Both the position numbers and the translations under genes were made by a program. A stretch of DNA of 64,000 bases from a virus: IMG/VR virus record IMGVR_UViG_3300043331_000441, positions 1-64,000 of that record; one strand, 5' to 3'. Below are positions 56,173-58,935 of the stretch, piece after piece; the first letter of the stretch is position 1; every line of letters starts with the position of its first letter. Below the pieces are notes generated by a model, which did not search any database, had not been told where the DNA came from, and saw nothing but the letters and a program-made list of their open reading frames with translations.

Positions 56173-56682
56173 ATGACCGAGATCGTCCCCGTCCCATCGC
56201 AAGGCATCCAGCTACTCGCCGAGTTAGAGAAGGCGGGGGCGATCACCAACACCGCACTCATCCTCCCACCAGACATACCGTACGAGCAGTGTGAATCACT
56301 CGCGACGATGCTCGGTCAGCTGCACCGCACGTCGCAGTGGCTGATCGGTGATTTGCTCAATCACATCGAACGGGTCTACGGTGAGACGTATGCACAGGCA
56401 GCGGAGGCAACAGGTCTCTCGAAAGGGGCGCTCATGAACTACACCTCTGTCTGCGCGCACATACCGCGCTCACGGCGGCGGCACAACGTGCCGTTCTCAA
56501 CCCACATGGAAGTTGCGTATCTCGAACCGACCGAGCAGGAACGCTGGTTGAGCCAGGCTGCCGCGAATCGGTGGACAAAGGAAGAACTGCGTGCTGCGAG
56601 AAAAGCAGAGGGCAATCACTCGCCAGCGGTAGTAGAATGCGTATGTGCAGCGTGTGGACATGTCCACACGCACACCGCATAA
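56173..56682 (+). CDS. HTH protein with C-terminal Cys/His tail
   Basis: 169 aa behind CCGGAGGGAAG. A central helix-turn-helix (YAQAAEATGLSKGALMNYTS, about 77-96) with helical flanks and a C-terminal CVCAACGHVHTH metal tail. Likely DNA-binding regulator. Last gene before the tRNA region. Confidence 0.68.
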   Translation: MTEIVPVPSQGIQLLAELEKAGAITNTALILPPDIPYEQCESLATMLGQLHRTSQWLIGDLLNHIERVYGETYAQAAEATGLSKGALMNYTSVCAHIPRSRRRHNVPFSTHMEVAYLEPTEQERWLSQAAANRWTKEELRAARKAEGNHSPAVVECVCAACGHVHTHTA

Positions 56683-56705
56683 AAGGAGAGCAACAGCAAT
56701 AATAT

Positions 56706-56810
56706 GCGCCCGTAGCTCATTGGTAGAGCACCGGTCTGATTGGCCGGAGGTAAGCGCGAAAGCATAGGTGGGTTCATCGCCACCGAAAGGTTCGATTCCT
56801 GCCGGGCGCT
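56706..56810 (+). tRNA. tRNA-Ile-like (GAT) with a 24-nt insert in the T stem
   Basis: Acceptor GCGCCCG/CGGGCGC, D stem GCTC/GAGC, anticodon stem CCGGT/GCCGG with loop CTGATTG (anticodon GAT at 56738-56740), then a long variable region. The T stem is split: GCA (56762-56764), insert 56765-56788 starting TAGG and ending CCGAAA, then GG (56789-56790) and loop TTCGATT. Removing the insert restores GCAGG/CCTGC. The insert folds GGTGG/CCACC. Base 37 is T, unusual. Confidence 0.6.
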
Positions 56811-56839
56811 TACGCAAGAGAGCAGCGCACTCTCTAGGG

Positions 56840-56922
56840 CTGGGAAACGGGAAGCCGAAGCGTGGCAGCGGGGGCGCCCCGCGCAGAAGCCAATCCGTGC
56901 GATGCGGAGCACCGTTTCCCAG
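56840..56922 (+). ncRNA. Stem-closed structured element between the tRNA-like genes
   Basis: A perfect 11-bp outer stem (56840-56850 with 56912-56922) encloses a GCGGGG/CCCCGC hairpin containing a GGGGCGCCCC copy and a TCCG/CGGA hairpin with 7-nt loop. 83 nt; a three-way junction as at 4551-4646. Not a tRNA cloverleaf. Confidence 0.6.
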
Positions 56923-56933
56923 TACCGACTTAT

Positions 56934-57086
56934 CGGGATGTAGCTCAGTGGTAGAGCACCGGTCTGATGTACCGGAGGACGCGTCTGAAAAGACATAGGC
57001 ATTCCAGAAGGGCGACGTATTCGCGCTTTTGAGAAGCCGGAGCGAAATACTCCGTAAGCCGAAAGGTTCGAATCCTGCCATCCCGA
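56934..57086 (+). tRNA. tRNA-Ile-like (GAT) with a 69-nt insert in the T stem
   Basis: Acceptor CGGGATG/CATCCCG, D stem GCTC/GAGC, anticodon stem CCGGT/ACCGG with loop CTGATGT (GAT at 56966-56968), a long variable region with a GTCT-GAAA-AGAC hairpin, then ACA, insert 56996-57064 (again starting TAGG and ending CCGAAA), GG, loop TTCGAAT, CCTGC. After removal the T stem has four of five pairs. The insert carries GGC/GCC, AAG..CTT and GGAG/CTCC stems. Confidence 0.55.
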
Positions 57087-57088
57087 CT

Positions 57089-57550
57089 ATGAAACGACCA
57101 ACACTCATATGGGCACAAGACCTCGGAGAACCCGAGTGCCCCTACGCACGACGCTGGGTTCTCAATCTTGGCTTCGCCAGTATTCGCGTCCACCACTGGG
57201 TCCGCAGCGACGACAAGCGCGCGCCGCATGATCATCCATGGTGGTTTCTGACACTGGTGCTGTCAGGCTCCTACGAGGATTGGGGCTATCCGGAACGCAC
57301 CGCCAAGGGCGCCCCGCGCCTGGATCACAAAACAGTCGATCCGCTCAAACGTGGCAGCGTGCGTTACCGGCCAGCCCATCACATTCACTCGGTGAGCGTC
57401 CCGCCGGGCGGATGCTGGACAGTCCTCCTCACGGGAAGGGAGCGCAAACAGTGGGGATTCTGGACGCGCCGGAAGGATGGCGCTGCGCGTTTTCTGCGTT
57501 CTGCGCGATACTTCTATAAGCACGGGCACCATCCGTGCGATCAGGAATGA
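57089..57550 (+). CDS. Cupin-like protein
   Basis: 153 aa from ATG 57089, three bases after the tRNA-like gene. VHHWVRSDDKRAPHDHPWWF (HxH metal site), then LVLSGSYEDWGY, RYRPAHHIHSV and WTVLLTGRERKQWGF fit a single-domain cupin often found in phages. Metal-binding beta barrel; enzymatic role unknown. A GGGCGCCCC copy encodes KGAPRL. Confidence 0.72.
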   Translation: MKRPTLIWAQDLGEPECPYARRWVLNLGFASIRVHHWVRSDDKRAPHDHPWWFLTLVLSGSYEDWGYPERTAKGAPRLDHKTVDPLKRGSVRYRPAHHIHSVSVPPGGCWTVLLTGRERKQWGFWTRRKDGAARFLRSARYFYKHGHHPCDQE

Positions 57551-57622: not shown

Positions 57623-57700
57623 ATGGAAGAATGCGACCACGACTGGGATGACGACTTCATGGGCGGTTCAATCTGCCGAAAGTGTCGTACGCATGTCTAA
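57623..57700 (+). CDS. 25-residue zinc-knuckle peptide
   Basis: ATG 57623 with no strong site. CDHDWDDDF and CRKCRTH could hold a zinc; a minimal metal-binding peptide common in phages. Coupled to the next gene. Confidence 0.45.
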   Translation: MEECDHDWDDDFMGGSICRKCRTHV

Positions 57701-57878
57701 AAACGTCTTCTGGGAGGGCGTGTCTGCCAAGGATGACCCGCGTCGGTTCAGACGTCCAGTACGGGTGGATGGAAAGAATTGCCGTGACCGTCAACCCTGG
57801 GGAGGATTCACCGACCAGGAGCGATGTGAATGCGTCGGAGAATGCGAGTACGATCGCCGACAGAATGAGGCTTCGTGA
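57693..57878 (+). CDS. Small Cys-rich protein
   Basis: 61 aa from ATG 57693. Basic start, then CECVGECEYD near the end, a likely metal site. Unknown. Overlaps the HNH gene by 14 bp. Confidence 0.58.
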   Translation: MSKNVFWEGVSAKDDPRRFRRPVRVDGKNCRDRQPWGGFTDQERCECVGECEYDRRQNEAS

Positions 57879-58167
57879 CCCAGGACTCCTCGCGCTTCTT
57901 TCGCATACGTATGACGAATGCGCATTGTGTGGCACCACACAAAATCTGCACCTGCACCACGTGCTCTACCGCTCGCAAGGAGGTGATGATGTCCGTGGGA
58001 ATATCGTTTGCCTCTGCCGCTCGTGCCATGAAGCAGTTCACCGAGGCGATAAAGCTGCTCTCCACGCACACATCCGCCTCTTCCGGCCAGACGTCGTGGA
58101 ATATCTGCAAGGACGACTAGGTGTAGATGCAGCGAATGCACGTTTAGCGTCCGATGCCTGTGGATAA
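57865..58167 (+). CDS. HNH endonuclease
   Basis: 100 aa from ATG 57865; the longer open frame upstream overlaps two small genes. CALCG, LHLHHVLYRSQGG (H), GNIVCLCRSCHEAVH (N and C pair, H) form the complete HNH core (about 18-65). A free-standing nicking or homing nuclease next to tRNA-like genes. Its stop lies within a perfect DnaA box. Confidence 0.78.
   Translation: MRLRDPGLLALLSHTYDECALCGTTQNLHLHHVLYRSQGGDDVRGNIVCLCRSCHEAVHRGDKAALHAHIRLFRPDVVEYLQGRLGVDAANARLASDACG
58159..58167 (-). other. Consensus DnaA box
   Basis: TGTGGATAA is the complement of TTATCCACA, the consensus DnaA binding site. Only one copy with a nearby weak TGTGGAT (58185), so replication use is doubtful. Confidence 0.3.
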
Positions 58168-58188
58168 CATATCCCCAGGTGATTGTGG

Positions 58189-58509
58189 ATGGCAACAAAG
58201 CTGTACGACAGCCAGCGCTGGCGCGACTACCGTTCGCGCGTTCTCGCAGACGACGCTGAGTGCGCCTTCGCGCGCCTGGCGGGCGACTGCAGCGGCGCGC
58301 TGCAAGTTCATCACGTTGAGCCACTCGCTGACGGTGGGCCACCGTTTCCCGCCAGAGATGGCGTGGTTGTGTTGTGTGTCGCGCACCACAGCTGGCTCCA
58401 CGGCTGGAAGCGACGTAAGAAGCAGACCTGGAAAAGGTGTCCTCATCACCATGTGACGCCCGAAGGGCGTCGCCTGTGTGAACGTAGGCTGAACCGAGTC
58501 GCCGCCTAG
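58189..58509 (+). CDS. HNH endonuclease
   Basis: 106 aa. ATG 58189 (TTG 58183 alternative). LYDSQRWRDYRSRVL, CSGALQVHHVEPLADGG (HH), VVLCVAHHSWLHG; typical HNH nuclease with a basic, His-rich C terminus. Second of two HNH genes in tandem. Confidence 0.76.
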   Translation: MATKLYDSQRWRDYRSRVLADDAECAFARLAGDCSGALQVHHVEPLADGGPPFPARDGVVVLCVAHHSWLHGWKRRKKQTWKRCPHHHVTPEGRRLCERRLNRVAA

Positions 58510-58539
58510 TACGTCCGATCGCAAAATTACTGTTTCCCC

Positions 58540-58935
58540 GTGGAAGTTTCCCCGGAGGAAAGGGCATGGGCTGCTGGTCTCTTCGAGGGCGAGGGTTGTC
58601 TTGCATACAGCAACGGACGCCCGCGTCTACAACTCAAGATGATCCATGAGGAAAGCGTTCGACGTGTTCATGCAGCGATTGGGCTTGGCAAGGTGTACGG
58701 GCCGTACGGCCCGTACACCAGCCAATTCGGTAGTAAGCCTGTGTTCATGTGGGTCGTCGACCAAGACGAGGTTGCGGAGGCAATCGAACTCTTGCGTCCC
58801 CATCTGTCAGAGTGGGCCGCCAAACGGCTTGATCGAACTGCGGACGAACGCATCAATGATGTTCCTCGTGCGGTGCGTAAGCCCAAGCGTCGCCGCCCGC
58901 CAGAGAACACAGATGCCGACGACTGGTTGTCATGA
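58540..58935 (+). CDS. LAGLIDADG-type homing endonuclease
   Basis: 131 aa, GTG start with AAATTACTG upstream (no clear RBS). WAAGLFEGEGCLAY matches the LAGLIDADG motif and its acidic residue, followed by LQLKMIHEESVRRVHAAIGL and a C-terminal basic helix. One motif, so it would act as a dimer. It contains the 28-bp perfect palindrome at 58692-58719. No group I intron could be drawn around it, so it is probably free-standing. Confidence 0.75.
   Translation: MEVSPEERAWAAGLFEGEGCLAYSNGRPRLQLKMIHEESVRRVHAAIGLGKVYGPYGPYTSQFGSKPVFMWVVDQDEVAEAIELLRPHLSEWAAKRLDRTADERINDVPRAVRKPKRRRPPENTDADDWLS
58692..58719. repeat. 28-bp perfect palindrome within the homing endonuclease gene
   Basis: The two 14-bp arms, 58692-58705 and 58706-58719, are exact reverse complements with no spacer. 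It encodes GKVYGPYGPYT. Could be the enzyme's own recognition site or an operator; chance is unlikely for this length. Confidence 0.8.

Follow-up and report, generated by a model that had tools for sequence, protein, structure and literature searches.

Two neighbouring tRNA-like genes of a tailed phage are best explained, in our view and with moderate confidence, as genes for tRNA-derived RNAs that are not spliced, carry an expanded variable region with several hairpins and would probably not serve in ordinary decoding. The window in which they lie, i.e., the whole stretch of 64,000 nucleotides analysed, covers the first 64 kb of a phage record of 130,556 bases (130.6 kb). According to this model, the tRNA ends, the D and anticodon arms and the T loop would be kept, and a variable region of 41 or 89 nt would fold into two to three hairpins, the first of them GAAA-capped, leaving a T stem of about three pairs (AGG/CCU). 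In the literature consulted for comparison, no description of such an unspliced extra-arm tRNA architecture was found for bacteria or their phages. If stable unspliced RNAs arise here, phages build tRNA-shaped RNAs with new arms for non-decoding jobs.

Anatomy of the two tRNA-like genes

The first-pass annotation had reported two tRNA-like genes with intact acceptor, D and anticodon arms, and both statements held. The Rfam tRNA family RF00005 matched both genes above its gathering score (Table 1), and constrained folds gave 7/7 acceptor, 4/4 D and 5/5 anticodon stem pairs in each copy. The only other Rfam tRNA matches in the window are an ordinary tRNA-His (4480) and an ordinary tRNA-Asp (59410). 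Besides the 7-bp acceptor and the D arm, both copies possess the canonical 5-bp anticodon stem with a 7-nt loop and a T loop of the form UUCRANU. Absent from both are the canonical 5-bp T stem, which has about three pairs (AGG/CCU) when nothing is excised, and a variable loop of either 4–5 nt or class II type. ARAGORN missed both genes at default settings; when introns were allowed, both were called with wrong anticodons. In copy 1, GTAAGCGC (56750-56757, variable region) is perfectly complementary to GCGCTTAC (56807-56814, 3′ end and trailer), a pairing alternative to the acceptor stem of which no counterpart was seen in copy 2.

Table 1. Features of the tRNA-like locus and of related elements; L064 is a second viral contig, L004 corresponds to positions 104001-124000 of the phage record.
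Feature	Position	Strand	Evidence or remark
tRNA-like gene 1	56706-56810	+	Rfam RF00005, 41.8 bits, E 1.8e-5; constrained folds
Copy 1 acceptor, GCGCCCG/CGGGCGC	56706-56712/56803-56809	+	
Copy 1 D stem	56715-56718/56726-56729	+	
Copy 1 anticodon arm, loop CTGATTG (GAT, T37)	56731-56747	+	
Copy 1 expanded variable region, 41 nt	56748-56788	+	sequence; folds
Copy 1 hairpin GC-GAAA-GC	56756-56763	+	folds
Copy 1 insert of first-pass annotation, 24 nt	56765-56788		within 41-nt region
Copy 1 hairpin GGTGG/CCACC	56767-56771/56780-56784	+	folds
Copy 1 T loop TTCGATT	56791-56797	+	
Copy 1 discriminator U (U73)	56810	+	
Structured RNA, closing helix GGGCTGGGAAACGG.../...CCGTTTCCCAG.CC	56837-56926	+	fold, z = −2.9
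tRNA-like gene 2	56934-57086	+	Rfam RF00005, 46.5 bits, E 8.9e-7
Copy 2 acceptor, CGGGATG/CATCCCG, Pro-type	56934-56940/57079-57085	+	
Copy 2 anticodon arm, loop CTGATGT (GAT, G37)	56959-56975	+	
Copy 2 expanded variable region, 89 nt	56976-57064	+	folds
Copy 2 hairpin GTCT-GAAA-AGAC	56983-56994	+	folds
Copy 2 insert of first-pass annotation, 69 nt	56996-57064		within 89-nt region
Copy 2 T loop TTCGAAT	57067-57073	+	
Copy 2 discriminator A (A73)	57086	+	
Cupin gene, PHROG 4786 ‘cysteine dioxygenase’	57089-57550	+	PHROG match; sequence
tRNA-like of L064	L064 11895-11790	−	pattern match
About 7 tandem Y-RNA (YrlA)-like units	L004 12430-11390	−	upstream of TROVE/Ro60 gene (L004 9707-11335)

Extra sequence before the T arm and the question of splicing

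Normally, about 8 nt separate the anticodon arm from the T arm. Inserts of 24 and 69 nt, splitting the 5′ T strand behind GCA/ACA and sharing TAGG and CCGAAA at their ends, had been proposed for the two copies. The common ends were confirmed (CATAGG at the start; CCGAAA, 6/6, at the end, abutting the T arm), but the real excess is larger, namely 41 and 89 nt: since variable loops of 14 (copy 1) and 17 nt (copy 2) instead of the normal 5 remain after the proposed excision, the anomaly exceeds the quoted inserts. In the Rfam alignment all extra sequence falls in the variable region, and GAA(A)GG, with one mismatch, serves as 5′ T strand. With the tRNA core imposed, the best folds combine a 3-bp T stem with free variable hairpins at −44.3 (copy 1) and −57.2 kcal/mol (copy 2); forcing the split T stem yields −39.2 and −47.9 kcal/mol, at a cost of 5.1 and 9.3 kcal/mol, respectively, in RNAfold energies, which leave out tertiary contacts. 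When folded without constraints, both RNAs lose the T tip at their energy minimum.

The variable region of copy 2 contains two more predicted hairpins beyond GTCT-GAAA-AGAC, and its stretch 56978-57064 is more stable than shuffled sequences (z = −3.1). A GAAA hairpin framed by GC..ATAGG is present in both copies, and at its two inner pairs both partners have changed between the copies with pairing kept (C-G to U-A and G-C to C-G). The GCA/ACA triplets, previously taken as 5′ T strand, overlap the 3′ side of this hairpin, so that the compensatory change speaks weakly for the GAAA hairpin over a split T stem. Covariation support is thin as there are only two copies, and the T-stem alternatives are inseparable by covariation because the 3′ strand TGC is identical in both. 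The suggestion of an extra arm in the T stem survives in modified form: an extra-arm architecture fits best, but an expanded variable region describes it better than a T-stem insert. The score of a global alignment of both variable regions was reached by 287 of 3000 shuffles, and the insert interiors are not demonstrably related to judge from their sequences. Insertion of a repeat element was rejected because no second copy of the insert occurs elsewhere in the phage record. Both inserts as originally delimited are multiples of three (24, 69) and each starts with an in-frame TAG; the frame is open from insert 1 to insert 2 (ORF 56768-56998) and continues into the cupin gene, which is probably a coincidence.

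That the 24 and 69 nt are mini-introns whose removal from the T stem yields functional tRNAs, as had also been considered, appears very improbable. Their excision does produce T stems of 5/5 and 4/5 pairs, upon which ARAGORN calls tRNA-Ile(gat) for both copies, and GCAGG/CCTGC is the T stem of a phage tRNA-Pro that agrees in its 3′ half. However, restoring a tRNA does not locate the junctions, because excision of the whole variable region (with GAAAGG kept) is called tRNA-Ile equally well. The supposed 5′ T-strand triplet sits in the hairpin with the compensatory change, the split stem costs 5–9 kcal/mol, and the leftover loops together with a missing A37 would still give odd tRNAs. No match to Rfam intron or ribozyme families was obtained over 56600-57200, even at E ≤ 10. 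Profiles of the splicing and ligation families RtcB, RNA_ligase and tRNA_int_endo found no match in the 130.6-kb record, and their controls worked (for tRNA_int_endo, 4/14 control genomes were positive, all archaea); an enzyme supplied by the host would be conceivable. The proposed junctions do not form a bulge-helix-bulge, as GCA/ACA is by inspection not complementary to the GAAA of the other junction. The earlier remark that known bacterial tRNA introns belong to group I or II agrees with a 2014 review, according to which bacterial tRNA genes lack structural diversity with one significant exception, namely such introns at positions 37/38 (PMC4033280). They likewise interrupt a tRNA gene, but neither the position 37/38 nor a catalytic core of about 100 nt is found in the phage copies.

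Identity of the tRNA-like RNAs and competing explanations

The assignment to tRNA-Ile could not be upheld beyond the GAU triplet (both loops read CT-GAT-NN). A37 is missing in both copies, copy 1 carries U73 and only copy 2 the A73 of tRNA-Ile, both have G29-C41 rather than C29-G41, and the ends of copy 2 are of Pro type; Ile identity depends strongly on t6A37 and A73 and to a minor degree on C29-G41 (PMC9976931). Of 100 Pseudomonadota genomes, 35 contain the normal CTGATA pattern, with 52 matches in total, every one CTGATAA; when position 37 had to be T or G, 596 genomes yielded four matches, and inspection showed a proper anticodon stem in none of them. Without A37 and with a weak T stem, service as ordinary tRNA-Ile would be unlikely. 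Over its last 23 nt, copy 2 is identical to a tRNA-Pro of Stenotrophomonas phage Jojan60 with the T stem GCAGG/CCTGC, and it shares its acceptor with a tRNA-Pro of Streptomyces phage Faust; by this resemblance, copy 2 carries proline-type ends. Both tRNA-Pro agree with copy 2 in acceptor and T half but differ in their proline anticodon (TGG annotated in Faust), normal variable loop and 5-bp T stem. Since each copy may owe its acceptor stem to a different ancestral tRNA, the contrast between these stems does not by itself prove selection.

Degradation, which had been named as a further option, is retained as the main and a serious rival of the preferred unspliced architecture, and we hold degradation to be the less probable of the two. 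Former phage tRNAs would have gained sequence before the T arm and would now be drifting, with damaged anticodon loop and T stem; copy 2 would derive from a tRNA-Pro-like gene with the T stem GCAGG/CCTGC, and intact tRNA-Pro relatives with GCAGG T stems do exist in other phages. The loss of A37, the weakened T stem, the insert interiors without demonstrable likeness and a tRNA-like element without T loop in another phage (see below) agree with decay, as does the fact that no second family member with such inserts was found in the viral contigs or bacterial genomes searched. On the other hand, all acceptor, D and anticodon pairs are intact and the T loops canonical in two copies, the GAAA hairpin varies with compensation, and the variable region of copy 2 beats shuffles in stability. 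After a recent insertion, however, the intact stems may be plain inheritance.

Class II tRNAs (Ser, Leu, bacterial Tyr) and nev-tRNAs likewise combine a cloverleaf with extra structure between the anticodon and T arms, and nev-tRNAs join a long arm to a class I anticodon, Ile included. In the same way, SerRS or LeuRS could charge the phage RNAs, which would then be functional tRNAs with an oversized variable arm that misread AUC; we regard this as improbable, if less so than mini-introns. The long arm recognised by SerRS/LeuRS has a predicted counterpart in the phage copies, which also have the GAU anticodon and a cloverleaf core. Nematodes possess a nev-tRNA-Ile(UAU), and their nev-tRNA-Gly leads to insertion of leucine (PMC4033280). 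Yet the phage copies differ in having two to three hairpins in 41 or 89 nt, far exceeding class II arms in length, a T stem of about three pairs without a 9-bp acceptor, T or G at 37 beside U36, and U73 or A73 instead of G73. Moreover, E. coli tRNAs with an aptamer inserted in the V loop had no more than marginal activity (PMC7590224). The 9/3 allo-tRNAs from metagenomes (PMC7590224), with a 9-bp acceptor, are similarly non-canonical, with a long V arm and a 3-bp T stem. This type was rejected by inspection: the phage acceptor has 7 bp, and bases 8-9 (UA) cannot pair with 64-65 (GC).

The adjacent cupin gene and further elements of the record

The cupin gene starts directly behind tRNA-like gene 2, its ATG (57089) lying 3 nt past the discriminator base without a Shine-Dalgarno sequence. 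Among 2.9 million viral contigs, only L064 matched a relaxed pattern of the anticodon arm with T or G at position 37. Its tRNA-like has a 7-bp acceptor and a D arm, CCA is encoded, and the anticodon loop reads CTGATTG as in copy 1; a T loop is absent. It, too, lies directly upstream of a cupin gene, a homologue of that in the window (E 2e-35), and no other convincing genes are common to both phages in the 12-kb stretch compared. The only in-frame ATG/GTG/TTG start found for the L064 cupin is an ATG within the tRNA-like (T-arm region), nine bases past GGAGG, a Shine-Dalgarno sequence which forms the end of the anticodon arm and which the search pattern itself demanded.

The arrangement suggests a tRNA-like/cupin cassette and possibly a processing or leader element. 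We propose the latter because enzymes of tRNA maturation could still see the intact acceptor stems and T loops. A cut at the 3′ end of tRNA-like 2 would release a cupin mRNA with a two-base leader (CU-AUG), and in the L064 phage, with the cupin start inside the tRNA-like, folding and translation would compete. Taken alone, a processing or leader role for the cupin mRNA is perhaps conceivable but doubtful. Equally tentative is a phage class of tRNA-derived RNAs with multi-hairpin variable regions that would process or gate cupin mRNA. The L064 element, its T loop altogether missing, may be a degraded remnant and not a relative built on the same plan. As the two phage stretches are otherwise unlike, their common pairing of tRNA-like and cupin would point to a function open to testing. 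It is rare, since eight cultured phages with cupin homologues have no annotated tRNA upstream.

Searches for further relatives gave no comparable gene. The T block with the insert end has no exact match elsewhere in the 2.9 million viral contigs; CCGAAAGGTTCRANTCC occurs in 25 of them, none with a comparable insert. In 84,980 bacterial genomes the T block with the insert end gave nine matches, either unrelated or tRNA-Arg fragments. In blast searches against cultured phages, the variable region with spacer matched only a tail-fibre sequence by chance, and the 3′ part of copy 2 only the tRNA-Pro 3′ end. Terminase relatives (88–61% identical) are fragments, and those compared match the structural half of the record, without the tRNA/cupin stretch. 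In Colwellia tRNA-Arg arrays (L066, L067, L070, L072), a detached tRNA-Arg 3′ fragment (CGAAAGGTTCGACTCCTGC..) lies downstream of the intact gene.

The structured RNA between the two tRNA-likes belongs to no Rfam family and has no relative among cultured phages. Theta ribozymes associated with phage tRNAs (PMC10879173) are likewise structured RNAs beside such genes, but an HDV-like or theta ribozyme was rejected here, as there is no family match and the locus had two hits in a crude topology scan against 0–4 in shuffles, no better than chance. A perfect 22-nt palindrome, GCGTGTGGACATGTCCACACGC, lies at 56650-56671, at the end of the gene 56173-56682. Behind the cupin gene, three HNH-endonuclease-like genes follow in series (57682-58935), which suggests an insertion hot spot. 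The Y-RNA-like units elsewhere in the record consist of GGGCCGGAG..GGTTATC, then T arm, acceptor and D arm in permuted order, and ..ACACCACGCCC. Two related phage records (L052, L053) contain seven and eight unit starts in the same place, and some of these units are called as tRNAs.
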